Shown: one piece after another, positions 39,204 to 54,949 of the stretch
Position numbering within the stretch: position 1 is the stretch's first letter
Layout of the letters: each line of letters starts with the position of its first letter
NCBI RefSeq assembly: GCF_000613845.1
Contig: NZ_BAJT01000006.1
Coordinates: forward strand, 1-64,000
Direction: 5' to 3'
Source: Asaia astilbis JCM 15831
GTDB lineage: Bacteria; Pseudomonadota; Alphaproteobacteria; Acetobacterales; Acetobacteraceae
Length of the DNA: 64,000 bases
The notes under the pieces: generated by a model
What the model was told of the DNA's origin: nothing
The model's input: only the letters and a program-made list of their open reading frames with translations
Databases searched by the model: none
Program-made: the position numbers and the translations under genes

Positions 39204-41484
39204 GTGACGTCGTCTTCGGAAAAAGACCCAAAGGCTGCCCGAACCGGGGCACCCTCAACTGCCGGAAACAGGCGCACAAGATCACCGCGGACGACCCGTG
39301 CTGTGGCACGGATTCCGGATCCGGGGATCGTGACGTCCCCCGCACGTTTCATCAACCGCGAGCTATCCTGGCTCGACTTTAACCAACGCGTGATCGAGGA
39401 GGCGGAAAACAGCCGCCACCCTTTGCTCGAACGACTGCGCTTTCTGTCGATCAGCGCCAGCAACCTCGACGAATTTTACTCAGTCCGCGTGGCTGGTCTC
39501 GTCGGTCAGGTCCGTGAGGGGCTGGTCGTTCCCTCGGCCGACGGTCTGACCCCAGCACGCCAGCTCACCAGCGTGCGGCGGAGCGCCGCCAAGCTCTTTG
39601 CCGCTCAGCAGAGGATCTGGCGTCTGCTTCGCGGCGAGCTTGCGCAGGCCGGCATTCGCTTATGCAACCGGGATGAGCTGACTGATGCCGAGCGTGCGAG
39701 CATCGCCGCAAAGTTCGAGGAAGAAATCTATCCCGTTCTTACGCCGCTTGCGATCGATCCGTCTCATCCGATGCCGTTCATACCCAATCTGGGGATGGCG
39801 CTGGCACTCAGGCTGAACGACCCATCCGTGCCTGGCTTTACGATGGACGCGCTCATTCTGCTTCCGCAGCAGATCGACCGTTTCATCAGGCTGCCCGCGC
39901 CGCATCGGGAAGAGCCCGATATTCGTCCCGATGTACGCTTCGTGCTGCTTGAAGATGTTATCCGTCTGCATATCACCCGCCTGTTCCCCGGGTTGGAGAT
40001 TGCCGAGGGCGGCGTCCTTCGTATCATCCGCGATTCCGATGTAGAGTTCGAGGACGAGGCCGAAGATCTGGTTCTGTCCTACGAGACAGCACTCAAACAG
40101 CGTCGTAGAGGCGTCGGGATCCATCTTTCTCTCGACACGGCCATCCCTGAAGCGCTCGGTTACGAGTTTGCCGAAGAGCTCGATGTCGCCAGAGACGATG
40201 TGGTGATCCAGCCTGACATCATCGGCGTGGTCGATCTCAAGCAGATGATCGTTTCAGACCGGCCCGATCTGCTTTTCAAGCCCTACACACCGCGCTTTCC
40301 CGAGCGCATCCGCGATTATGACGGCGATTGTTTCGCTGCGATCCGCGCCAAGGATATTGTGGTCCATCACCCTTCGAAAGTTTCGATGTGGTGGTGCAGT
40401 TCCTTAAGCAGGCAGCGCTCGATCCCAATGTGGTGGCGATCAAGCAGACGCTTTATCGCACGTCACGGGACAGTCCGATCGTGCGCGCGCTCATCGAGGC
40501 TGCAGAGTTGGGCAAGTCGGTGACGGCCATGGTCGAGCTGCGTGCCCGCTTCGATGAAGAGGCGAATATCCGTCTTGCGCGTTCGCTGGAATCAGCCGGG
40601 GTTCAGGTTGTCTTTGGCTTCACGCATCTCAAGACGCACGCAAAGCTGAGCCTCGTTGTCCGCCGTGAGGCAGGCGGGTTGCGCTCTTACGCTCATTTCG
40701 GGACCGGCAATTATCATCCGATCACGGCGCGTATCTATACCGATCTGTCTTTCTTTACCTGCGATCCGCAGTTGGCGAGCGATTCAGCCAAGCTCTTCAA
40801 CTACATGACGGGTTACGCCGCCCCGGCGGACATGGAAGCGCTCGCTTTTGCTCCGATCACGCTGCGTGACACCTTGATGGATCTGATCGACGCGGAAATT
40901 GTCCATGCCAAGGCGGGGCGCCCGGCCAAGATCTGGCTCAAGATGAATAGTCTGGTCGATCCGTCTCTGATCGATGCCCTTTATCGCGCCTCGCGCGCCG
41001 GTGTTAAAGTGGTGGGGATCATTCGCGGGATCTGTTGCCTGCGTCCCGGCGTGCCGGGATTGTCCGAGAATATCGAGATACGATCGATCGTCGGGCGTTT
41101 TCTGGAGCACGCCCGGATCTACGCCTTTGGCAATGGCCATCGCATGCCGTCACACAAGGCAAAGGTCTTCACCTCGTCTGCGGACTGGATGGGACGCAAT
41201 ATGGATCGGCGTGTCGAAGCCTGGTGCCGCTCTGCAATCCAACCGTCCATGCCCAGATCCTGGGACAGATCATGACGATGGATCTGCGTGACACGCTCCA
41301 GAGCTGGGTTCTCTCTTCCAAGGGGGATTGGCAGCGCGTGGCTCCGGGGGCTAATCCCTTCTCCGCGCATGAGTATTTCATGCACAACCCGTCGCTTTCC
41401 GGACGTGGGTCGGCAGCCAGGGAGAAACCGCAGGACAAGGATGCGGGTCGCCGCGAGCGGCCGGATCGGGTTCGTGAAGATTAA
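39204..41484 (+). CDS. ppk: Polyphosphate kinase 1 (two one-base frameshifts)
   Basis: Reversible polymerisation of the ATP gamma-phosphate into polyphosphate. The N-terminal domain starts after about 45 disordered residues with [12 protein letters not shown]. The frame breaks near 40372 (His-His-Pro then Phe-Glu-Ser-Phe one frame over). The second frame has Ala-Ile-Lys-Gln-Thr-Leu-Tyr-Arg, the autophosphorylated His region Lys-Thr-His-Ala-Lys and Gly-Thr-Gly-Asn-Tyr, plus the second His motif Ser-His-Lys-Ala-Lys. It breaks again at 41220 (Val-Glu-Ala then Leu-Val-Pro one frame over) and ends at 41484. One base at each site restores about 760 aa. Followed by ppx 13 bases later. Confidence 0.9.
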
Positions 41485-41497
41485 GAAAGAGGGTAAA

Positions 41498-42990
41498 GTG
41501 TCCGGTACTGACGTTCCGCAAGGCCACCATCGTGCAGCCATCGTCGACCTCGGTTCGAATTCGGTTCGACTGGTTGTCTTCGAGGGAGTGACGCGCAATC
41601 CGATCCCCATTTTCAACGAAAAAGCGACCCTGAGGCTCGGTCGCGGTCTGGAGCAGACAGGACGTCTCAACGAGGAAGGTCTTCTGGTTTCTCGTGATGT
41701 GATGAGCAGGTTCAATGCCATTGCGCGCGCGATGAACGCCCATCCTTTCGAGGTGCTGGCGACAGCCGCTGTACGTGACGCGAGCAATGGTCAAGAATTT
41801 GTCGAGACATTGCATGAATGCATGCCCGACGTGCCGATCCGCATTCTCACGGGTGAGGAAGAAGCCGATTACGCAGCGACCGGTGTCTTATGCGGTTTGC
41901 CTGACGCCGATGGTGTTGTTGCCGATATCGGAGGAGGCTCGCTCGAACTGATCCGGGTGGCGGAAGGGCGCCATCATGAAGCCTGCACAAGGCCGCTCGG
42001 GGTCATCCGGCTGTCTGATCGTGCTGAGGGAGACCTGAAGCGGGCACGTGAGGTCGTCGAGGCAGACCTTGATGATGTGGCATGGCTGCCTGCGCAGAAG
42101 GGCAAGCCGCTTTATCTCGTCGGCGGAGCCTTCCGTGCCCTGGCAAAGCTGCAGATCGCACGTACCGGATATCCGCTGAATATCGTCCATCTCTATACGC
42201 TTGGAGCGGACGAAGCCCGAGAAATGGCGACGTGGCTGATCGAAACGCCGCGCAAGATACTCGAAAAACTGCCGGGTTTCCCGCGCAAGCGTCTCGATGA
42301 TGTCCCGTTTGCGGCCACTGTGCTGCGACGACTGATGCGTATCGTGCAGCCTTCCCAGATCATCTTCAGCGTGGATGGTCTTCGCGAGGGCTGGTACATG
42401 CACAAAGTGGGGCAGGCCGTTGCTTCGCTCGATCCCTGTCGCGCATTGGCTGACGAGACTGCGGCGCGCCTCAGTCGCAGCATGGAGTTGCCAGGTGAGC
42501 TTGTGCGATGGACGGCACCCCTTTTCCAGCACGAAACCCCTACGGAAACGGCCTTGCGGGACATGGCGTGCCGGATGTCCGATATCGGGTCGTTCGATCA
42601 CCCTGAATATCGGGCACCCCAGACCTATCTGCGCGTCATGCGGATGCATGGTGTGGGGTTCGATCATCAGGCAAGGGCGTTTGTCGCGATGACGCTCGCG
42701 GTGCGCTACGAAGCAGACCCTACAGATCAGCTGATGGACGTGTCCCGACGCTTCTGGACCCGGATGATTGCGATCGCGCCATACAGCTCGGCTTTGCGCT
42801 GCGTCTTGCCTACACCATCTGCGGCGGGACAGCGGATCTCCTCAGAAACACGACCCTGTCGATCGAAGATGGTCAGCTCTGGCTGACTCATAACGAGCAA
42901 AGCAGCTTTGCTGCGGGTGGTGGGGTCAAGCGTCGTCTGGATCGCCTGGGTCAAAGCATGAATCTCGTTGCTAACACGCGCGAATGCTGA
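41498..42990 (+). CDS. ppx: Exopolyphosphatase / Ppx-GppA phosphatase (one-base frameshift near 42775)
   Basis: Degrades polyphosphate (and possibly pppGpp) from chain ends, opposing Ppk. Features are Asp-Leu-Gly-Ser-Asn-Ser-Val-Arg-Leu near residue 17, Leu-Thr-Gly-Glu-Glu-Glu-Ala near 115 and Asp-Ile-Gly-Gly-Gly-Ser-Leu-Glu-Leu near 145. GTG 41498 fits the family N-terminus; upstream in-frame ATGs lie inside ppk. The frame breaks near 42775: the first frame goes into junk ending at 42886, while one added base continues with a Gln-Leu-Gly-Phe-Ala-Leu-Arg helix to TGA at 42988-42990 (497 aa). It overlaps the next gene. Confidence 0.9.
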
Positions 42991-43887: not shown

Positions 43888-45206
43888 CTAGTCGATGCTC
43901 TTCAGGAGACGCCCAATCGTCTCGAAGATGCGGTCGATTTCACCTTTTTCGATGATCAGAGGCGGAGACACAGCCAGCGTATCCCCGGTGTAGCGCAGCA
44001 GAAGTCCATCATGGAAAGCGCGCTCGAACACCTCGAAGGCGCGTGTCGTTGACGCGTTTCGTGGTGCCAGTTCGATACCCGCAACCAGACCCTCATTGCG
44101 AATGTCGACCACATGAGGGAAATCTCTCAGGGAGTGAGCGGCCTCTTCGAAATAGGGCGACAGCGTCGCCGCACGCTCGAAGAGATGCTCTTCGGCATAG
44201 GTGTCGAGCGTGGCCAAAGCAGCGGCACAGGCGATTGGATGCGCCGTATAGGTATAGCCATGCGGGAGATCGATGGCGTCACGCGGACCTTGCATGAAGG
44301 CCTCGAAAATCTCGTCAGAAACGATGGCGGCCCCCATTGGAATGGTGCCGTTGGTGATGCCCTTGGCCACTGTCATGATATCGGGCACGACACCGTATTT
44401 TTCGGCGGCGAAGGACGCGCCCAGACGCCCGAACCCGGTGATGACTTCATCGAAGATCAGCACGATGCCGTGTTTTGTGCAGATTTCTCGCAGGCGTTTG
44501 AGATAGCCTTTCGGCGCGGGCAGGACACCGGTCGATCCGGCCATGGGTTCGACAATGACTGCAGCGATATTCGAGGCGTCATGCAGGGCCACGATCCGTT
44601 CCAGCTCGTCGGCCAGTTCTGCGCCGTGCTCGGGCAGACCACGGGAAAAGGCATTGCGACGCAAATCGAGCGTGTGGGGAAGGTGGTCCACGCCGGTCAG
44701 CAATGATCCGTAGAGTTTGCGATTGCCGGAAATGCCACCGACAGAAATCCCGCCGAAACCGACCCGTGATAGCCGCGCTCGCGGCCGATCAGACGGGTGC
44801 GCGTGCCTTCGCCGCGCAGGCGCTGATAGGCGAGGGCGATTTTCAAAGCGGTATCGCCAGCTTCCGAGCCGGAATTGCAGAAGAAAACGTGATTCAGAGG
44901 ATTGGGTGCGAGCTGGGCGATACGGTCAGCTGCCTGAAAGGCAAGCGGGTGACCGATCTGGAAAACCGGTGCGAAATCGAGAGTCGCCACGGCTTTTTGC
45001 ACGGCTTCGATAATACGTGGCTGACCATGACCCGCGTTGACGCACCACAGACCCGCGCAGCCATCGAGCACTTCACGACCCTTATCGTCGCGATAATACA
45101 TGCCCTTTGCGGAAACCAGCATGCGCGGTGCATCGCGAAATTGCCGATTAGCGGTGAAGGGGAGCCAGAGAGCATCGTGATTGGTATCGGCGTACGAAGA
45201 GGTCAT
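43888..45206 (-). CDS. Class III aminotransferase, omega-amino acid:pyruvate type (one-base frameshift near 44763)
   Basis: A PLP-dependent transaminase of the omega-amino acid/beta-alanine:pyruvate group. The N-terminal part has Leu-Trp-Leu-Pro-Phe-Thr-Ala-Asn-Arg and Asn-Ser-Gly-Ser-Glu-Ala (PLP phosphate). The C-terminal part has Ile-Phe-Asp-Glu-Val-Ile-Thr-Gly-Phe-Gly-Arg, Ala-Lys-Gly-Ile-Thr-Asn-Gly (PLP Lys) and Tyr-Thr-Tyr-Thr-Ala-His-Pro. The frame breaks near 44763: after Gly-Tyr-His-Gly the family sequence Val-Gly-Phe-Gly-Gly continues one frame over. One base restores 439 aa. ATG 45206 fits the family N-terminus. It is divergent from the MFS gene. Confidence 0.88.
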
Positions 45207-45318
45207 GGCCTGGGTTCCGGCTCGATTGAAGAGAAGATAGGGTCGAAAATCTTGCATGATGAGCGCGATCTGCAAAGTAAGAAGAACTTGCGTGAACAGA
45301 TTATTTCAAGGAGCCGTG

Positions 45319-46938: not shown

Positions 46939-47289
46939 CTATTTGGCGAAGCCACGGGGTATGACAATATTGAGATTTATCTCATTTGTCTTGTTCCATC
47001 GATCTACAGATTCCCTGAGTAAATAATATAGTACCGATATATCATCTTCTCCAATAATCGGTATGTCATTAAAAACGATCCAGACATCCCGATATGTTAT
47101 CCAGTGTAGATCGTTTATACACTCATCAAATGCGTCCCAGTTGAAGCCAAAATAAGACGGAAAATTCAAGAGTGTACGAAAGATATTAAAAAACTGCTCT
47201 AGTCCTTTTATTTTTTCTGGGACGAGAAATACAACGCTTTCTCTGTCGTTTGGGATTTCTTCTGATCCCAATTCTATAATGCGGGACAT
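46939..47289 (-). CDS. Barstar family ribonuclease inhibitor-like protein
   Basis: A 116-aa protein with the barstar fold. The diagnostic segment Phe-Pro-Ser-Tyr-Phe-Gly-Phe-Asn-Trp-Asp-Ala-Phe-Asp-Glu-Cys near residues 43-57 contains the nuclease-blocking helix with the key Asp. Barstars bind and block barnase-type RNases or toxin tips. The gene is much AT-richer than its surroundings and uses many AT-ending codons, which suggests acquisition by transfer. No barnase-like toxin gene is visible next to it, so it looks like an orphan immunity gene. Confidence 0.8.
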   Translation of the reverse strand: MSRIIELGSEEIPNDRESVVFLVPEKIKGLEQFFNIFRTLLNFPSYFGFNWDAFDECINDLHWITYRDVWIVFNDIPIIGEDDISVLYYLLRESVDRWNKTNEINLNIVIPRGFAK

Positions 47290-47883: not shown

Positions 47884-48597
47884 GTGAAAATCAGGCAGCG
47901 CCGTGTGCGGTGCATGATTTCTCTGACGCTTGTCTCCTCAATCCTGTCGTTTGCGGCGGGGATGCCGCGCGCAGCCGTAGCGGCTCCAGCCAATGTCGGC
48001 GACGTCGCGGCAGCGGCAATGGCCTATCACGACAGCGGCTCCTATGACCGGGATTTCCGGTCGGTCATTCAGGAAGCCTCGGAGTGGGTTCGCCTCCGTG
48101 CCGGTCATGTCAGCAAGCCTGCCATCGTGCTCGACATCGACGAAACCTCGCTCTCCAACTGGCCTGAAATTGCTGCCAATCATTTCGCCTATTTCCGGGA
48201 AGGGCCATGCGACGCTCTTCCTGAAGGTCCTTGCGGCGTCGATACGTGGGAAAAGACAGCTCAGGCCAAAGCCTTTGCCGGAACCTTGTCGCTCTACGCC
48301 CAGGCGCGTCAGCACGGCGTTGCGGTGTTCTTCGTGACCGGGCGGTATGAGAACGAGCGTGAGGCGACTGCCCTCAATCTTGAAACTGCGGGCTATCGCG
48401 ATTGGGCAGGTCTCGTTCTGCGTGAAGATGGCAGCCACACTGCGTCTGCCGCCGACTACAAGACACCGGCGCGAGCCCGGATCGAGCAGGACGGCTATCG
48501 CATCATCGCCAATATCGGAGATCAGCCTTCGGATCTTGCTGGCGGTCATGCCGAACGTGGCTTTCTCCTCCCCAATCCTTTTTACCGGGTGCCCTGA
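47884..48597 (+). CDS. Exported HAD-superfamily acid phosphatase (class III B type)
   Basis: A secreted or membrane-tethered acid phosphatase of the HAD IIIB group (lipoprotein e(P4)/plant acid phosphatase type), a family that removes phosphate from 5'-nucleotides. From GTG 47884 there is an Arg-rich n-region, a hydrophobic core and an Ala-Val-Ala-Ala cleavage region. ATG 47914 (start of the core) is the alternative. Catalytic Asp-Ile-Asp-Glu-Thr is near residues 84-88, motif II Phe-Val-Thr-Gly-Arg near 155, a conserved Tyr-Lys-Thr and motif IV Gly-Asp-Gln-x-Ser-Asp-Leu near 215. The stop is one base before the flavoprotein ATG, so it belongs to the purine operon and may supply nucleosides; that link is inference. 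Confidence 0.85.
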   Translation: MKIRQRRVRCMISLTLVSSILSFAAGMPRAAVAAPANVGDVAAAAMAYHDSGSYDRDFRSVIQEASEWVRLRAGHVSKPAIVLDIDETSLSNWPEIAANHFAYFREGPCDALPEGPCGVDTWEKTAQAKAFAGTLSLYAQARQHGVAVFFVTGRYENEREATALNLETAGYRDWAGLVLREDGSHTASAADYKTPARARIEQDGYRIIANIGDQPSDLAGGHAERGFLLPNPFYRVP

Positions 48598-48598
48598 C

Positions 48599-50041
48599 AT
48601 GCAAAACCAAGCGCTCAGTGATCTCACGAAGCAGGTTCACGCCGATCTTGAGAAAATTGCCTATGCCTCCGGCCCATGGGTGTCGTCTGTGGTTACCCAT
48701 AAGGGAGAGCCGGTTCTGGATGTTGCTGTCATCGGGGGCGGGCAGGGCGGGCTAGCGTCCTGCTTCGCGCTTCGGCGTATCGGTGTTCATAATGTGCGTG
48801 TGTTCGAGCGCGCTCGGGAAGGTAAGGCCGGGCCCTGGGTCACCTTTGCCCGCATGATCACCCTGCGCACCCCCAAGCATGTGACGGGGCCGGATCTCGG
48901 TATCCCCTCACTGACCCCGCGTTCCTGGTTCGAGGCACGCTATGGGAAGGAAGCCTGGATGTCGCTTGGCAAGATCGATCGTCGCGATTGGCAGGCCTAT
49001 CTCGACTGGTATCGCACCACCCTTGCACTCCCTGTTGCGCATGATCGCGAGCTGGTGGAGGTGGTCTGGCAGGACGGGCTGCTCCACCTGACATTCCGCG
49101 CGCAGAATGGTGAGACCGAGCAGGTCTGGGCACGACGTCTCGTTCTGGCGACGGGGATTGAGGGGAGCGGCTCGTGGCACGTTCCCGACTTCATCCGCGA
49201 TGCCGTGCCTGCACATCTTTACGCCCATACGCATCAGGACATCGATTTCGAGGCGTTGCGTGGCAAGCGGGTCGGGGTGCTTGGCGGAGGGGCATCGGCT
49301 TTCGATAATGCAGCTACAGCGCTGGAAGCCGGGGCGGCTTCCGTCTCTGTCTGCATCCGTCGCAAGACGTTGCCCCGCATTAATCCCTATCGCTGGATGG
49401 AAAACGCAGGCTTTCTCGGCCATTTTCCGTCTTTGCCGGATCTGACACGCTGGCGCTTCATGCGTCGTATCTTCGATCTCAATCAGCCGCCCCCGCAGGA
49501 TACGTTCTGGCGGTGCAGCCGTCATGATGGGTTCAGTTTCCACGGTGATACGCCCTGGCTCGATGCGCGGTGCGAAGGGGAAACCATCGTCGTGACGACC
49601 CCGCATGGGGATATGCAGTTCGATTATCTGATTATCGGTACGGGGTTCGTTATCGATTTTACGAAGCGGCCGGAGACAGCCGGTTTTGCGTCCAACATCG
49701 CCTTGTGGGGCGATCGCTTCTCTGCGCCTGAGGGGGAGGAAAGCGCTGTGCTGACTTCTTACCCTTATCTCAGCCCGCAAAGTCAGTTTTTGCCGCGTGA
49801 CCCCAGCCATCCCGATGCGGCGATGCTGGCAGCGATCTATAATTTCACCTTTGCGGCAACGCCGAGCATGGGTCTGTCCGGTGCGTCGATCAGCGGGATG
49901 CGTTACGGCGTTGATCGTCTCGCACGCTCGATCGCGTGCGATCTCTTCGTGCAGGACGGCGAAAAACATCTTGAGAGTCTGCTTTCTTACGATGCAGAAG
50001 AACTCATCAGCCTTGGTCGCGAGGAAGAGACGCAAGCATGA
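48599..50041 (+). CDS. FAD/NAD(P)-binding oxidoreductase (flavin monooxygenase-like) of the purine operon
   Basis: A 480-aa flavoprotein. The FAD Rossmann motif Gly-Gly-Gly-Gln-Gly-Gly is at residues 46-51 and a second nucleotide motif Gly-Gly-Gly-Ala-Ser-Ala-Phe-Asp-Asn near residue 225. This two-domain layout is that of class B flavin monooxygenases, not the single-Rossmann class A urate hydroxylase HpxO. A further Gly-Thr-Gly-Phe segment sits near residue 350. It overlaps the DUF4089 gene by four bases. Because the operon encodes the steps after urate oxidation but no known uricase is visible, this is a candidate for that oxidation or another purine-ring step. This is not shown by sequence. 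Confidence 0.8.
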   Translation: MQNQALSDLTKQVHADLEKIAYASGPWVSSVVTHKGEPVLDVAVIGGGQGGLASCFALRRIGVHNVRVFERAREGKAGPWVTFARMITLRTPKHVTGPDLGIPSLTPRSWFEARYGKEAWMSLGKIDRRDWQAYLDWYRTTLALPVAHDRELVEVVWQDGLLHLTFRAQNGETEQVWARRLVLATGIEGSGSWHVPDFIRDAVPAHLYAHTHQDIDFEALRGKRVGVLGGGASAFDNAATALEAGAASVSVCIRRKTLPRINPYRWMENAGFLGHFPSLPDLTRWRFMRRIFDLNQPPPQDTFWRCSRHDGFSFHGDTPWLDARCEGETIVVTTPHGDMQFDYLIIGTGFVIDFTKRPETAGFASNIALWGDRFSAPEGEESAVLTSYPYLSPQSQFLPRDPSHPDAAMLAAIYNFTFAATPSMGLSGASISGMRYGVDRLARSIACDLFVQDGEKHLESLLSYDAEELISLGREEETQA

Positions 50042-50211
50042 CGGCAGAAGAGTGTCTGGCAGCCCGTGCGGCTGCACTCGATCTGATTGTTCCGGAAGAA
50101 TATCGTTTCGAGATCTTGCGCAATCTCGCCCTGATTGCCGAATATGAAGCGCTCGTCAGCGCGATCGAGCTGCCGGAGCGGCTTGAGCCTGCTTTCGAGT
50201 ATCGTCCATGA
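50038..50211 (+). CDS. DUF4089 small protein (AtzG/HpxX-like)
   Basis: A 57-aa protein. The composition and pattern (Ala-Ala-Leu-Asp-Leu, Val-Pro-Glu-Glu-Tyr-Arg, then a helical stretch and Leu-Glu-Pro-Ala-Phe-Glu-Tyr-Arg-Pro at the end) match the DUF4089/HpxX/AtzG family. AtzG is a small partner that stabilises the amidase AtzE. Overlaps on both sides (ATGA with the flavoprotein and ATGA with the amidase) support translation. Its position directly before an AtzE-family amidase is as expected. Confidence 0.85.
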   Translation: MTAEECLAARAAALDLIVPEEYRFEILRNLALIAEYEALVSAIELPERLEPAFEYRP

Positions 50212-51533
50212 GGGCTGTCGAGATCAGCCGCGCAGTGCGCGCGGGTGAAATTTCGGCAGTCTCGGCTATCGAAGCCAGTCTCGCGCGGGTGAAGACCCGC
50301 GATGGCACGGTCAACGCTGTCACGAGGCTCCTGTCGGAACGCGCCCTAGAGCAGGCGCGCAGGATCGATGGACTGGTCGCCAGAGGGCAAGACCCCGGCC
50401 CTCTGGCGGGGGTGCCTTTCGGGATCAAGGACCTTTTCGACGTCGAGGGGCTGGTGACCACGGCAGGATCCAGAGTCCTGCGCGAGATGCCGCCCGCGAC
50501 GCAGGATGCAGTTCTGGTGCGCCGCCTTGTGGAAGCAGGTGCCATACCGCTTGCGACGACAAATATGGATGAATTTGCCTACGGGTTTGCCACAGATAAC
50601 GCGCATCACGGTCTGACTCGAAACCCCCATGATACAGACCGTCTCGCTGGAGGCTCCTCGGGTGGATCGGCGGCGGGTGTGGCCGCTGGGTATTTTCCGT
50701 TGTCTCTGGGCTCGGATACGAATGGCTCGATCCGGGTGCCTGCGTCGCTCTGTGGTGTCTGGGGGCTACGGGCAACCCAGAATCGCCTCTCGACGGAGGG
50801 CTCTTTTCCCTTTGTGGCCAGCCTCGACACAGTAGGGCCCTTCACTGCCAGTGCTGCCGATCTGCGCGCGGTGGTCGAGGCGGTGACGGGGGAGCGACTG
50901 CCTCCCGTCGAGACAGGATCGTTGCGGCTGGCCCGTCTGATCGGCTGGTTCGCGTCGGATCTCTCCACGGAAATGGCTCAGGCTTTGAGCGAGTTCTGTC
51001 ACGCGTTGAAGATCGTCAGAGAAGTGGACGTGCCTGATGTGGCTGCTGCGCGCGCGGCGGCTTTTGTCATCAGCGCCTCGGAGGGGGGATCGCTCCATCT
51101 GGAGCGTTTGCGAGATCAGGCCGTGCTTTACGATCCAGCTGTGCGGGACCGCCTTTTGGCGGGCGCGCTCGTTCCGGCACCGAGTGTGTTCCGGGCTCAT
51201 CGGGTTCGGCGGCATTTTCGGTCGAAGATGCATGAGGCGTTTCGCGACGCGGATCTTCTGATCGCGCCTGCAGTCACTGGGGAAGCGCCTCTTTGCGACA
51301 ACCCAACTCTCATGATCGGCGGAAAAGCCGTTCCGGCGCGCGCCAATCTGGGAATTTATACCCAGCCTTTGACACTGGCCGGTTTCCCTGTCCTGACCGT
51401 CCCGCTTCACGTGTCCGGATTACCGCTTGGGGTGCAGGTCGTCGCGCCGCCGGGTCGCGAGGATCGGTTGATTGCGTTTGGCGAGGCTCTGGAGCAATCG
51501 GGTCTCGCTCGCTCGCGAATTCTGGAGGATTGA
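50208..51533 (+). CDS. AtzE/HpxY-family amidase
   Basis: A 441-aa amidase-signature hydrolase. The Ser-cis-Ser-Lys triad is visible: Lys in Gly-Ile-Lys-Asp-Leu-Phe-Asp at about residue 74, cis-Ser in Gly-Gly-Ser-Ser-Gly-Gly-Ser at about 148-154 and the nucleophile in Ser-Asp-Thr-Asn-Gly-Ser-Ile-Arg at about 174. The Asn in that motif, together with the adjacent DUF4089 gene, points to the AtzE group. In Klebsiella the hpxXY pair belongs to oxalurate use. The gene ends overlapping the next start (TGATG). Confidence 0.88.
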   Translation: MRAVEISRAVRAGEISAVSAIEASLARVKTRDGTVNAVTRLLSERALEQARRIDGLVARGQDPGPLAGVPFGIKDLFDVEGLVTTAGSRVLREMPPATQDAVLVRRLVEAGAIPLATTNMDEFAYGFATDNAHHGLTRNPHDTDRLAGGSSGGSAAGVAAGYFPLSLGSDTNGSIRVPASLCGVWGLRATQNRLSTEGSFPFVASLDTVGPFTASAADLRAVVEAVTGERLPPVETGSLRLARLIGWFASDLSTEMAQALSEFCHALKIVREVDVPDVAAARAAAFVISASEGGSLHLERLRDQAVLYDPAVRDRLLAGALVPAPSVFRAHRVRRHFRSKMHEAFRDADLLIAPAVTGEAPLCDNPTLMIGGKAVPARANLGIYTQPLTLAGFPVLTVPLHVSGLPLGVQVVAPPGREDRLIAFGEALEQSGLARSRILED

Positions 51534-53110
51534 TGCTTTTCAGTGCGCGATCGCGAAAGGGGATGGTCACAGCCCCCCATCATCTCGCCGCGCAGGCGGG
51601 AAGAGACATCCTCAAAGCGGGTGGCAATGCCGTAGAGGCTGCGGTTTCCGTCGCAGCGACGCTTTCCGTTGTCTATCCGCACATGACCGGCCTTGGCGGC
51701 GACGGCTTTTGGCTGATCCGCCGCCCAGATGGGGCCATGCTGGCGATCGATGCCTGCGGTAGACTGGCGCAGAGCGCTGGGCCTGAGCTGTATCAGGGGC
51801 TTGATGCCGTGCCATGGCGCGGGGGACTTGCTGCGAATACGGTGGCCGGAACGGTCGCAGGCTGGAACCGCGCCCTGGCCTATGCAGGCGGAAACCTGCC
51901 TCTGACCACCTTGCTCGCCGATGCCATCGATCATGCTGAATCCGGCATGGTGGTGACCGAGAGTATGGCAGGTTTGATGGCGGCTCATCTCGGCACACTC
52001 AACTACATGCCGAATTTCGGTTCGTTGTTTCTTCCGGCGGGCGACATGCCGATTGCCGGAAGCGTCCATCGCAATCCGGCTTTGGCGCGGACGCTCAAAA
52101 GACTGGCGACTGCGGGCTTGGGCGATTTCTATCATGGGAAACTGGCCGATCTGATCGCAGCGGAACTGGCTGCCTGCGGCTCGCCTGTCAGTCTCGATGA
52201 TCTGAACCGCCATGACGTTGTGGCGGGCGCGCCTCTCGAAACGATGCTGCACCATGGCCGGTTTTTCAACGTCGCGCCGCCTACTCAGGGGGCGGCTTCC
52301 CTGCTTATTCTTGCCCTTGCCGAGCGGCTTGGCGTGCAGGGCGCGGATACGGTCGAGGATATCCATCGCTGGGTAGAAGCCACGAAGGCTGCCTTCATCT
52401 GGCGCGATCGTGAAATTGCTGATCCTGCAATCATGCGAATTTCTCCCCAGACGCTCCTTTCCGACCCGGCAGAGCTTGATCGTCTCGCGGCTTCGATCGA
52501 TCTGACACGGGCTTCTCCCTGGCCGCATGAAGCACAGCAGGGCGATACGACCTGGTTCGGCGTCATGGACTCCGAAGGCTGGGCCGTCAGTATGATCCAG
52601 AGCCTCTACTTCGAATTCGGTTCGGGCGTGGTGCTGCCTGAAACCGGGCTGGTCTGGCAGAACCGGGGCTCGAGTTTCGAGCTGAAACAGGGCGGATTGC
52701 GAAGCCTCGTTCCCGGTCGCAAACCCTTCCACACGCTCAATCCGGCGATGGCCGCCCTGAATGATGGCAGCTTGCTGGCCTATGGCACGATGGGCGGAGA
52801 AGGGCAGCCGCAGACGCAGGCGGCCATCATTGCCCGGAATGTCATCGCAGGGCTCAGCCTGCAGGAAGCCATCACGGCACCGCGCTGGCTGCTGGGCCGG
52901 ACATGGGGTGAGACGAGCACGACGCTGAAGATGGAAACCCGCTTTGCTCCCGAGATCTTCGACGGGTTGAGCGCTTTGGGTCACGACGTCGAGGGGCTGA
53001 CTCCTTTCGCGACGGCGATGGGTCACGCGGGCGCAATACGGCGGTATGAGGACGGCACGATGGAGGGCGCCACCGATCCGCGCAGCGATGGCGGTGTCGC
53101 AGCACTCTGA
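51533..53110 (+). CDS. Gamma-glutamyltransferase-fold hydrolase, HpxW-like (oxamate amidohydrolase)
   Basis: A 525-aa Ntn-hydrolase that should self-cleave into two subunits. The nucleophile is expected at the Thr pair in Gln-Gly-Asp-Thr-Thr-Trp-Phe at about 339-340. The N-terminal Met-Thr-Gly-Leu-Gly-Gly-Asp-Gly-Phe near residue 51 and Gly-Gly-Glu-Gly-Gln-Pro-Gln in the small subunit are family motifs. No signal peptide is visible, so it is cytoplasmic, unlike classical periplasmic GGT. In Klebsiella HpxW cleaves oxamate to oxalate and ammonia, and position beside hpxXY-like genes supports that role. A ctggagg site precedes ATG 51533. Confidence 0.85.
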   Translation: MLFSARSRKGMVTAPHHLAAQAGRDILKAGGNAVEAAVSVAATLSVVYPHMTGLGGDGFWLIRRPDGAMLAIDACGRLAQSAGPELYQGLDAVPWRGGLAANTVAGTVAGWNRALAYAGGNLPLTTLLADAIDHAESGMVVTESMAGLMAAHLGTLNYMPNFGSLFLPAGDMPIAGSVHRNPALARTLKRLATAGLGDFYHGKLADLIAAELAACGSPVSLDDLNRHDVVAGAPLETMLHHGRFFNVAPPTQGAASLLILALAERLGVQGADTVEDIHRWVEATKAAFIWRDREIADPAIMRISPQTLLSDPAELDRLAASIDLTRASPWPHEAQQGDTTWFGVMDSEGWAVSMIQSLYFEFGSGVVLPETGLVWQNRGSSFELKQGGLRSLVPGRKPFHTLNPAMAALNDGSLLAYGTMGGEGQPQTQAAIIARNVIAGLSLQEAITAPRWLLGRTWGETSTTLKMETRFAPEIFDGLSALGHDVEGLTPFATAMGHAGAIRRYEDGTMEGATDPRSDGGVAAL

Positions 53111-53150
53111 CCCTGAATTTGAAGATGACTGACCGGATGAAAGATCACGC

Positions 53151-54047
53151 ATGACACAAGACTATCCACGCGATCTGGCGGGCTATGGCGCCCATCCTCC
53201 TGAGGCCAATTGGCCGAACAAGGCTCGCATCGCGGTTCAGTTTGTGTTGAATTACGAGGAGGGCGCAGAGAACAGCGTTCTCCATGGCGATGCGGGTTCG
53301 GAGGCTTTTCTCTCTGAAATGGTCGGTACCCGTCCGATCATCGGGGCACGCTGCATGCAGATGGAAAGCCTCTACGAATACGGGTCACGCGCCGGGTTCT
53401 GGCGTTTGCATCGTTTATTCACCGGGGCAGGTCTGCCTCTGACCGTTTTTGGTGTCGCAAAAGCGTTGGCCCGTAACCCCGATGCTGTTGCTGCCATGAA
53501 GTCGGCGGGATGGGAGATCGCGACGCATGGTCTGCGCTGGATCGACTATCAGGACGTACCTGAAGAAATCGAGCGCGAGCATATCCGTGAGGCCATCAGA
53601 CTGCACGAGGAAGTCACCGGTGAAGCTCCTCTGGGGTGGTATCAGGGGCGCACCAGCCCCAATACCGGGCGTCTCGTCGTGGAAGAAGGATGCTTTCTTT
53701 ACGATGCGGATTCCTACGCGGATGACCTGCCTTATTATGATCGACGCTACGGCAAGGCGCAGCTGATTGTGCCCTACACCCTCGATGTGAACGACATGAA
53801 GCTCGTCGCGCTGAACGGGTTTACGGAAGGCGAGCAGTTCTTCCGCTACCTGCGGGATACGTTCGATATGCTGTATCAGGAAGGGGGGCGCATGATGTCG
53901 ATTGGCTTGCATTGCCGTCTCGCCGGACGTCCCGCGCGCGCACTCGCCCTGAAGCGTTTTCTGGACCATGTGAAAGCCCATCAGGATGCGTGGGTTGCCA
54001 CACGTCTCGACATTGCGCGTCACTGGCTTGAGGTACACCCTGCATGA
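53151..54047 (+). CDS. puuE: Allantoinase PuuE (polysaccharide deacetylase fold)
   Basis: A 298-aa enzyme of the NodB/polysaccharide deacetylase superfamily that opens allantoin to allantoate without the zinc centre of classic allantoinases. Family marks are the N-terminal Arg-Asp-Leu-Ala-Gly-Tyr-Gly and Asn-Tyr-Glu-Glu-Gly-Ala-Glu segments, Glu-Ile-Ala-Thr-His-Gly near residue 125 and Trp-Tyr-Gln-Gly-Arg near residue 165. It starts 40 bases after the HpxW-like gene and overlaps uraD by four bases. Confidence 0.93.
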   Translation: MTQDYPRDLAGYGAHPPEANWPNKARIAVQFVLNYEEGAENSVLHGDAGSEAFLSEMVGTRPIIGARCMQMESLYEYGSRAGFWRLHRLFTGAGLPLTVFGVAKALARNPDAVAAMKSAGWEIATHGLRWIDYQDVPEEIEREHIREAIRLHEEVTGEAPLGWYQGRTSPNTGRLVVEEGCFLYDADSYADDLPYYDRRYGKAQLIVPYTLDVNDMKLVALNGFTEGEQFFRYLRDTFDMLYQEGGRMMSIGLHCRLAGRPARALALKRFLDHVKAHQDAWVATRLDIARHWLEVHPA

Positions 54048-54538
54048 TCCACGCAGAAACGCGTGAAGCGTTTGTCGAGCGTTTTGGCGCGATTTACGAG
54101 CACACCCCCTGGATCGTCGAGGCGGTCTGGCCTCAGGCCCCTTTTGTCGATGCACAAACCATGATCGGCGCCACGTCGAAGATCATCCGCGCTGCTGGTG
54201 AGGAACGGCAGAGAGCGCTGGTCAAGGCTCATCCCGAGCTGGCGGGGAAATTCGGGATCGATCCCGACCTAGGGGCACTTTCTGCCGCAGAGCAGGAGGG
54301 GGCAGGGCTGGATCGCCTGAGCGAGGCCGAGTTTGTCGCCTTTCGTGCGTTGAATGACGCGTATCAGGCACGTTTCGATATGCCCTTCGTCATCTGTGTG
54401 CGACAGGCTACAAAAGAACGCATGCGACAGGAAATCGAACGCCGTCTCCTCCAGAGTTCTGAGGCCGAACTGGCCGAGGCGCTCGACCAGATTGACCAGA
54501 TCGCCCTGTTACGTCTGAAGGACAAGATATCGCCATGA
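54044..54538 (+). CDS. uraD: 2-oxo-4-hydroxy-4-carboxy-5-ureidoimidazoline decarboxylase
   Basis: A 164-aa helical enzyme producing (S)-allantoin from OHCU. The catalytic His is in Ala-His-Pro-Glu-Leu-Ala at about residue 63, the Glu-Gln pair near residues 83-84 (Ala-Ala-Glu-Gln-Glu-Gly-Ala-Gly-Leu), and the Phe-Val-Ile-Cys-Val-Arg strand near 115. It overlaps puuE and uraH by four bases each. Confidence 0.93.
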   Translation: MIHAETREAFVERFGAIYEHTPWIVEAVWPQAPFVDAQTMIGATSKIIRAAGEERQRALVKAHPELAGKFGIDPDLGALSAAEQEGAGLDRLSEAEFVAFRALNDAYQARFDMPFVICVRQATKERMRQEIERRLLQSSEAELAEALDQIDQIALLRLKDKISP

Positions 54539-54867
54539 CAACGCTTTCGACCCATGTTCTCGATACATCAGCTGGCCGACCGGCAGCCGGAATGGCCGTT
54601 ACGCTGCTCAAGGGCGATGAAGAGCTTTTTTCGGGCGTGACAGATGAAGACGGGCGTTGCCCAGCGCTCAAAGAAGTCGAGGTTACTGCGGGTGCGCATG
54701 TGCTGCGCTTCGAGGTTGCAGCTTACTTCAGGGCGCGCGAGCTTGATCTTCCTGAACCGCCTTTTCTCGATGTCGTGCAGATCGATTTCGGTATGACGGA
54801 GACCGGGCATTATCACGTGCCGTTGCTCGTCTCCCCCTTCGGCTACTCCACCTATCGCGGGAGCTGA
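54535..54867 (+). CDS. uraH: Hydroxyisourate hydrolase (transthyretin-like)
   Basis: A 110-aa beta-sandwich enzyme hydrolysing 5-hydroxyisourate, the direct product of urate oxidation. It has the N-terminal Leu-Ser-Thr-His-Val-Leu-Asp motif with catalytic His 7, Gly-Arg-Pro-Ala, a central Phe-Arg region and the diagnostic C-terminal Tyr-Arg-Gly-Ser. It is the last gene of the operon and is followed by a long hairpin terminator. Confidence 0.95.
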   Translation: MTTLSTHVLDTSAGRPAAGMAVTLLKGDEELFSGVTDEDGRCPALKEVEVTAGAHVLRFEVAAYFRARELDLPEPPFLDVVQIDFGMTETGHYHVPLLVSPFGYSTYRGS

Positions 54868-54908: not shown

Positions 54909-54949
54909 AAAGAAGGCGGGAAGGGGTTCGACCCTTTCCCGCCTTCTTT
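54909..54949. terminator. Bidirectional terminator of the purine operon and second TonB receptor
   Basis: An 18-bp stem with one G-U pair and a five-base loop, flanked by A3 and T3. It lies between the convergent uraH and receptor genes. Confidence 0.9.

Follow-up and report, generated by a model that had tools for sequence, protein, structure and literature searches.

The window analysed here is a stretch of 64,000 nucleotides from Asaia astilbis JCM 15831 (Acetobacteraceae; positions 1 to 64,000 of contig NZ_BAJT01000006.1). It contains a run of eight genes at 47884-54867 which in all likelihood forms a single unit for the oxidative use of urate, started by a flavoprotein of the HpyO family; the unit would represent a rearranged HpyO-type urate-to-oxalate pathway to which a phosphatase has been added. 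The flavoprotein, which carries no name of its own, is very probably the urate-oxidising first step, of the HpyO kind, because its relatives sit between or beside uraD and uraH in many taxa, because, among 110 genomes from the window's family, its close homologues take the place of the urate oxidases PuuD and uricase and never occur together with them, and because the two branches of its tree that hold urate-linked members, A and B, stand apart from unlinked paralogue clades.

The reactions proposed for the pathway follow from the names of the enzyme families and from what is known of such pathways. Using flavin adenine dinucleotide (FAD), NAD(P)H and O2, the flavoprotein would hydroxylate urate to 5-hydroxyisourate, which UraH would hydrolyse to 2-oxo-4-hydroxy-4-carboxy-5-ureidoimidazoline (OHCU). 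Decarboxylation of OHCU by UraD would yield allantoin, and PuuE would open its ring to form allantoate. Two products of a second locus, the allantoate amidohydrolase HpxK and the ureidoglycine aminotransferase HpxJ, would convert allantoate to oxalurate, after which HpxX-HpxY would form oxamate from oxalurate and HpxW would convert oxamate to oxalate and ammonia. A urate-to-oxalate route is favoured since hpxK and hpxJ stand in the cluster or at a separate locus in related genomes. The phosphatase, predicted to be exported, perhaps frees nucleosides or phosphate from external nucleotides, a connection to the scheme that is weak.

The flavoprotein gene (48599-50041, + strand) encodes a predicted FAD/NAD(P)H-dependent protein, putatively a urate 5-hydroxylase as judged by its neighbours, tree position and predicted fold. 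Here and below, families were assigned by domain and profile searches, with bit scores read against curated cut-offs. The product matches PF13738 with 50.7 bits (cut-off 30), and a Pyr_redox_3 match covers residues 44-258. In the NCBIfam search it exceeded no cut-off and found no curated equivalog, and the HpxO model NF033623 (urate_HpxO) was not among its matches at E 0.001, in line with an earlier preliminary description of this DNA, which had placed no HpxO in the unit. Invariant glycines occur in two Rossmann-like stretches of the alignment, and FAD and NAD(P)H sites are expected. The fold was predicted with a local confidence score (pLDDT) of 82 and a predicted template modelling score (pTM) of 0.83; it comes closest to two ornithine hydroxylases, PvdA and SidA, at template modelling (TM) scores of 0.62-0.66, and no close solved relative was identified in the copy of PDB searched. 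The PvdA/SidA-like predicted fold fits a class-B layout, so that the label "class-B-like" given in the preliminary description holds for the predicted fold, but that description missed the probable urate-oxidising role. Because the flavoprotein groups with its Xanthomonas-like counterparts (42-46% identity to those of loci L301 and L304), it is filed as a putative HpyO-family member belonging to a sub-branch that is so far uncharacterised.

The co-occurrence of the flavoprotein with other enzymes of urate oxidation was analysed in 110 genomes of the window's family, with the line for a homologue drawn at an identity of at least 50%. Such homologues are encoded by 26 genomes, of which 25 also have uraH while none has PuuD or uricase. 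Altogether uraH was found in 56 genomes (over cut-off in 55), full-length PuuD in 20, with partial matches in five more, and uricase in seven; the searches for PuuD (PF06181) and uricase (PF01014) were positive in their controls, Caulobacter for the former and B. subtilis and Haloferax for the latter. The 56 uraH genomes comprise, without overlap, 25 with the flavoprotein, 19 with full-length PuuD and six with uricase, as well as six others. Fisher tests gave p 1.6e-10 for the exclusion between the flavoprotein and PuuD or uricase among uraH genomes, and p 3.4e-8 for the link of the flavoprotein to uraH in all 110. The two genes lie on one contig at a distance of at most 10 kb in 20 of the 26 genomes. 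Among the six other uraH genomes, G344 has a uraH that scores below cut-off and, between this gene and uraD, a 45% homologue; in G423 a PuuD fragment scoring under the cut-off lies close to uraH, where a contig ends.

The same association was found far outside the family. In an order-wide sample of 249 genomes, matches at E 1e-30 were present in 13 genomes, and all 11 strong homologues, four in one genus and seven in another, stand between uraD and uraH. The six wide loci among them have the order hpxK-hpxJ-puuE-hpxZ-uraD-flavoprotein-uraH, followed in three by xanthine dehydrogenase. These two genera are 86-96% identical to a segment of X. sacchari over the longest aligned parts of the DNA, whereas three genomes from other genera of the same family reach 78-82%, though likewise 86-88% over the tgt part; on this identity to the X. 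sacchari record the two genera are taken as Xanthomonas in the broad sense. The groups f52 and f49 were rejected as Xanthomonas, PuuD being located near uraH at seven of the eight f52 uraH loci and at both f49 loci fetched. The order uraD-flavoprotein-uraH also occurs on plasmids of Niveispirillum, Sphingobium and Novosphingobium (L017-L019) and in a genome of another class (L283), the informative one of 15 small loci found via PF13454, the other 14 of which hold none of the cluster genes searched. A plasmid of Priestia filamentosa carries permease-uraD-uraH-flavoprotein. In a scan of genome contigs the best 80 loci were kept, all from Bacillota by their titles, and both uraD and uraH were present in the fetched DNA at 15 of them: eight have uraD-flavoprotein-uraH, mostly with hpxJ, hpxK and AtzE-family or gamma-glutamyltranspeptidase (GGT)-family genes around, three have permease-uraD-uraH-flavoprotein, and four are looser. 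The idea of a wholly new urate oxidase without known relatives was dropped once the Xanthomonas-like loci showed this family between uraD and uraH.

The window's eight open reading frames (ORFs) all lie on the + strand, in the order HAD-IIIB acid phosphatase, flavoprotein, hpxX, hpxY, hpxW, puuE, uraD and uraH. The phosphatase and flavoprotein genes are separated by 1 base; overlaps of 4, 4 and 1 bases follow at the flavoprotein/hpxX, hpxX/hpxY and hpxY/hpxW junctions, then a gap of 40 bases between hpxW and puuE, and overlaps of 4 bases each at puuE/uraD and uraD/uraH. This arrangement, and the strong terminator said to close the unit, had been reported in the preliminary description, and both were borne out. 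The terminator is a bidirectional hairpin at 54909-54949 with 19 pairs on the + strand and a minimum free energy of -42.6 kcal/mol on the + strand and -32.5 on the - strand (z -6.4 and -6.6); none of 200 shuffles was as good on either strand. Beyond it, a TonB receptor gene is convergent with the operon. A consensus scan also listed weaker terminator-like sites within genes (18 on both strands against a shuffle mean of 8.9). Judged by their layout, the eight genes appear to be co-transcribed as one unit, within which some transcripts may end.

The gene order is not due to chance, because the full set of eight, read gene by gene, recurs in three other genera (G343, G346 and G357; loci L257, L258 and L260). 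The first four genes match in nine more genomes, eight of the window's genus and G016, and the span from the flavoprotein to uraH is 6246 bases in G003, 6262 in G016 and 6265 in the window. The preliminary description had pointed to Acetobacteraceae and Rhizobiales as groups in which the order might be sought. For Rhizobiales nothing comparable emerged: the four loci examined (L013, L014, L016 and L020) show no uraH or uraD, and the rhizobial relatives were rejected as the same system. At one of them, L020 on a plasmid of Rhizobium sp. ACO-34A, the relative of the flavoprotein has in its vicinity a deacetylase resembling PuuE and a gene annotated as 8-oxoguanine deaminase.

The three distal genes encode the allantoinase PuuE (53151-54047, +; TIGR03212, 525.8 bits, cut-off 424.6), the OHCU decarboxylase UraD (54044-54538, +; TIGR03164, 173.6 bits, cut-off 96.25) and the 5-hydroxyisourate hydrolase UraH (54535-54867, +; TIGR02962, 115.0 bits, cut-off 87.45), which has the C-terminal end YRGS. 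As the preliminary description had proposed, they are joined with homologues of the whole Klebsiella-type oxalurate/oxamate trio, HpxX, HpxY and HpxW. The hpxX gene (50038-50211, +) codes for an AtzG-like small subunit of 57 residues (PF13318, 30.2 bits, cut-off 24), and hpxY (50208-51533, +) for an AtzE-family amidohydrolase, putatively acting on oxalurate (TIGR02715 AtzE, 539.2 bits, cut-off 425.75), whose best PDB chain is the biuret hydrolase 6c62. The hpxW-like gene (51533-53110, +) codes for an N-terminal nucleophile (Ntn) hydrolase of the GGT family, a putative oxamate amidohydrolase (PF01019, 396.2 bits, cut-off 27; TIGR00066, 322.5 bits, below the cut-off of 357.85). Its best PDB chains are 5hft A and B (276 and 258 bits), listed under the name gamma-glutamyltranspeptidase, and we take 5hft to be Klebsiella HpxW. 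PMC12625717 gives HpxY as oxalurate amidohydrolase in the text and as oxamate carbamoyltransferase in a figure legend, and PMC5270733 gives HpxW as oxamate amidohydrolase. HpxZ was not found among the eight genes, the rest of the window's own genome not having been searched for it; an NF033625 (HpxZ) match is present in L283, and HpxZ homologues occur in the Xanthomonas-like and sphingomonad loci and in L140.

By its gene content the operon alone is not a complete pathway, because hpxK and hpxJ, which account for the steps from allantoate to oxalurate, sit at a second locus. Such a separate locus was found in the window's own genome (G000) and in G003, G016, G343, G346 and G357. In four related genera (G361, G367, G377 and G389) both genes stand between hpxW and puuE, the site of the 40-base gap (53111-53150, +) in the window. 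The hpxK product, an allantoate amidohydrolase, scores 588.5 bits against NF006775 in G377 (cut-off 479) and 527.3 bits in the window's genome, and the hpxJ product of G377 is closest to the ureidoglycine-glyoxylate aminotransferase 3nnk (513 bits).

The head gene (47884-48597, +), with GTG at 47884 and ATG at 47914 as start candidates, codes for an acid phosphatase of haloacid dehalogenase (HAD) subfamily IIIB (PF03767, 147.6 bits, cut-off 27) with a signal-peptide-like N-terminus, predicted to be exported, and contains the motifs DIDET, FFVTGR and NIGDQPSDL. The preliminary description had called it an exported nucleotidase-like enzyme. The acid phosphatase family and the N-terminus support part of this, but a nucleotidase activity is a guess, because among solved structures a vegetative storage protein of plants (4fyp) comes closest and the score against the e(P4) 5'-nucleotidase model TIGR01533 (53.7 bits) is far below the cut-off of 216.05. 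The phosphatase stands at the head in 14 genomes of six genera, namely nine of the window's genus and G016, G343, G346, G357 and G367. In G367 the cluster includes hpxK-hpxJ as well as the phosphatase; the latter may thus have been present already when the hpxK-hpxJ pair moved out. It is quite conceivable, if somewhat short of an even chance, that the phosphatase is a chance neighbour with no part in purine use: in G351, G361, G372, G377 and G389 no phosphatase gene was observed next to the flavoprotein. Its position within a few dozen bases upstream of the flavoprotein in six genera argues against this, as does the conservation of DxDET and GDQxSDL in all 14 genomes (in the alignment, the TGR of the third motif reads TAR in G346).

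For the phylogeny, rows were chosen by the authors from 166 distinct flavoproteins, 121 for a quick tree and then 74 for a careful one. In the 74-row tree, branch A, which includes the window, is united at 94/94 with branch B (Xanthomonas-like genomes, sphingomonads and Bacilli) and four rows without uraH nearby; A and B hold the urate-linked rows, and two unlinked paralogue clades, each at 100/100, lie outside. It is unlikely that the window's sub-branch took up urate independently of Xanthomonas HpyO and represents a further urate hydroxylase. This would fit the identity of just 42-46% to the Xanthomonas-like proteins, the length of branch B, the presence of the four rows between, the joining branch, which is not starred, and the larger quick tree, in which the deeper order is unsettled; yet A and B lie on a common side, away from both unlinked clades, and A+B constrained as one clade was not rejected by the approximately unbiased (AU) test (p-AU 0.28). 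Members of one paralogue clade, N2, in L016 (Rhizobium etli p42e) and L309 adjoin LysR-type regulators, and that of R. etli also an ATP-binding cassette (ABC) transporter for amino acids, suggesting another substrate. Two genomes of the window's genus (L009 of G007 and L010 of G001) show a flavoprotein match broken into two pieces, and in G001 the second piece contains an in-frame TGA.

Several observations weigh against assigning urate oxidation to the flavoprotein, and against the pathway built on it. The family is wider than urate, since most loci of Bacillota and of a phylum sample show no uraH nearby. Of the 80 nearest Bacillota loci, 65 have neither uraH nor uraD in the DNA fetched, the rest of those genomes not having been tested, and their neighbourhoods share little, no neighbour cluster being common to more than 13; in the phylum sample of 299 genomes, uraH was found at one (L079) of the 20 loci fetched for full-length relatives. 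The Xanthomonas-like flavoprotein between uraD and uraH is equated with the published HpyO by position only. The 50% identity line was drawn after the co-occurrence table had been seen, and six of the 26 homologues (G009, G017, G018, G371, G416 and G420) are not within 10 kb of uraH, which G416 lacks. In four uraH genomes (G014, G019, G355 and G356) neither PuuD nor uricase nor HpxO exceeds its cut-off, the surroundings of uraH showed no known kind of urate oxidase, and the flavoprotein is represented only by homologues of 44-48% identity at other places; at three of their loci (L253-L255 among L252-L255) uraH adjoins an allantoate-amidohydrolase-like gene. The HpxO model exceeds its 500-bit cut-off in none of the 110 genomes, 108 of which match weakly (best 220 bits), but this cut-off is without a positive control, as none of 14 control genomes passes it, and a diverged HpxO may be present. 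Finally, hpxJ of the window's genome is split over two frames (L312 11435-12606, corresponding to G000:C46:79434-80605, - strand) beside an intact-looking hpxK. An assembly error is a fair guess here, because the class III aminotransferase gene at 43888-45275 (-) of the same assembly is split over two frames too (profile positions 8-137 and 174-401; a broken gene or an assembly indel); the hpxJ copies of G003, G016, G343, G346 and G357 (L314-L318) are single matches.

The flavoprotein might instead be some other monooxygenase, such as an N-hydroxylase, that travels with the cluster, while the oxidation of urate falls to an enzyme not recognised here, perhaps a diverged HpxO. This would suit the unlinked Bacillota loci, the uncontrolled HpxO cut-off, the ornithine N-hydroxylases as best fold matches and the unlinked paralogue clades, some of them in genomes with PuuD near uraH. 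It is quite improbable, though, given that close homologues of the flavoprotein take the place of PuuD and uricase in the 110 genomes and never accompany them, that the flavoprotein stands between uraD and uraH across two phyla, and that it groups with the Xanthomonas-like protein located where HpyO is expected (PMC4562309).

The window's own genome, an assembly 88.8% complete, was also inspected for other urate oxidases. It contains one uraH match; no match to PuuD (Urate_ox_N, PF06181) or to cofactor-free uricase (PF01014) was identified in it, and HpxO-model matches are weak (best E 1.2e-7), so none of these enzymes was retained as its urate oxidase. A complete separate urate pathway, which the preliminary description had named as one finding that would speak against its proposal, was likewise not seen in this assembly. 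In G003, a class-A flavoprotein beside hpxK was rejected as a urate oxidase, scoring 76 bits against HpxO (cut-off 500); the window's genome has electron-transfer-flavoprotein genes at that place. The G003 gene, encoding a class-A FAD-binding monooxygenase, is located at L314 11906-13084 (-) in G003:C6 and scores 174.5 bits against NF005761 (cut-off 454).

Other genes were observed around the unit and its counterparts. Upstream of the operon lies a gene for a barstar-family ribonuclease inhibitor (46939-47289, -). A polyphosphate kinase gene (39204-41275, +), the first frame of which has only the N-terminal and middle domains, is followed by an overlapping second ORF, a possible frameshift, and adjoined by an exopolyphosphatase gene (41288-42886). 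In G343 a ferritin-like, Dps-type gene follows uraH (L257 11481-12044), and a similar ORF is present in G346 (L258 11691-12254), the G343 protein being the one searched. In G372 a Rieske-type oxygenase gene of the vanillate O-demethylase kind (L261 4222-5301) directly precedes the flavoprotein.

HpyO is reportedly an FAD-dependent urate hydroxylase of Xanthomonas (Michiel 2012). PMC4562309 describes it as a flavin-dependent urate oxidase from a family other than HpxO, and gives its kind as known from a limited number of bacteria. Among the open-licence papers listed by literature searches, none ties HpyO to the window's family in its title or in the opening of its abstract. The flavoprotein, for which there is no curated equivalog, provides that family with a clear candidate for the step that oxidises urate, and would explain the 25 uraH genomes without PuuD, uricase or HpxO over cut-off. 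The results suggest that the HpyO kind extends more widely into Alphaproteobacteria and Bacilli. If urate is indeed hydroxylated by an enzyme with a class-B-like fold, this would set it apart from HpxO and uricase; urate-degrading enzymes are also medically useful. A broader proposal is tentative and rather doubtful: that an uncharacterised sub-branch of urate hydroxylases with a class-B fold replaces PuuD and uricase in the window's family, and that some genera join it with an exported phosphatase and oxalurate/oxamate genes into a route from external nucleotides to ammonia, with the steps from allantoate to oxalurate at a second locus.

Among known systems, the PuuD membrane urate oxidase (PMC4562309) would be the enzyme for this step elsewhere in the window's family, but it is a membrane protein of another family and never occurs with a close flavoprotein homologue in the 110 genomes. 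The carboxybiuret hydrolase AtzG-AtzE belongs to the same small-subunit and amidase families as hpxX-hpxY; unlike it, the window's pair is part of a urate cluster, and no AtzD, AtzF or AtzH homologue is among the eight genes. The Klebsiella hpx system comprises HpxO, HpxW, HpxX, HpxY, HpxZ, HpxJ and HpxK. For the comparison with it, two genomes with similar genes (L140 and L141) were inspected, neither of them a named Klebsiella record. The window shares homologues of UraH, UraD, PuuE, HpxX, HpxY and HpxW and the same pathway logic, but has an HpyO-family protein in place of HpxO, no hpxZ among the eight genes, hpxK and hpxJ elsewhere, and an added phosphatase. Compared with HpyO of Xanthomonas, the window's flavoprotein is probably of the same family and likewise has no match to the HpxO model; it differs in its separate sub-branch, at 42-46% identity, and in its place before hpxXYW instead of between uraD and uraH. 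The preliminary description had suggested a distinct version of purine nitrogen scavenging. This is correct in that HpxO is not used and the arrangement is the unit's own, but the cluster is a rearranged version of one that Xanthomonas-like genomes, sphingomonads and some Bacilli carry; the pathway is already known, and what looks new is the way its genes are arranged, together with the exported phosphatase at their head.

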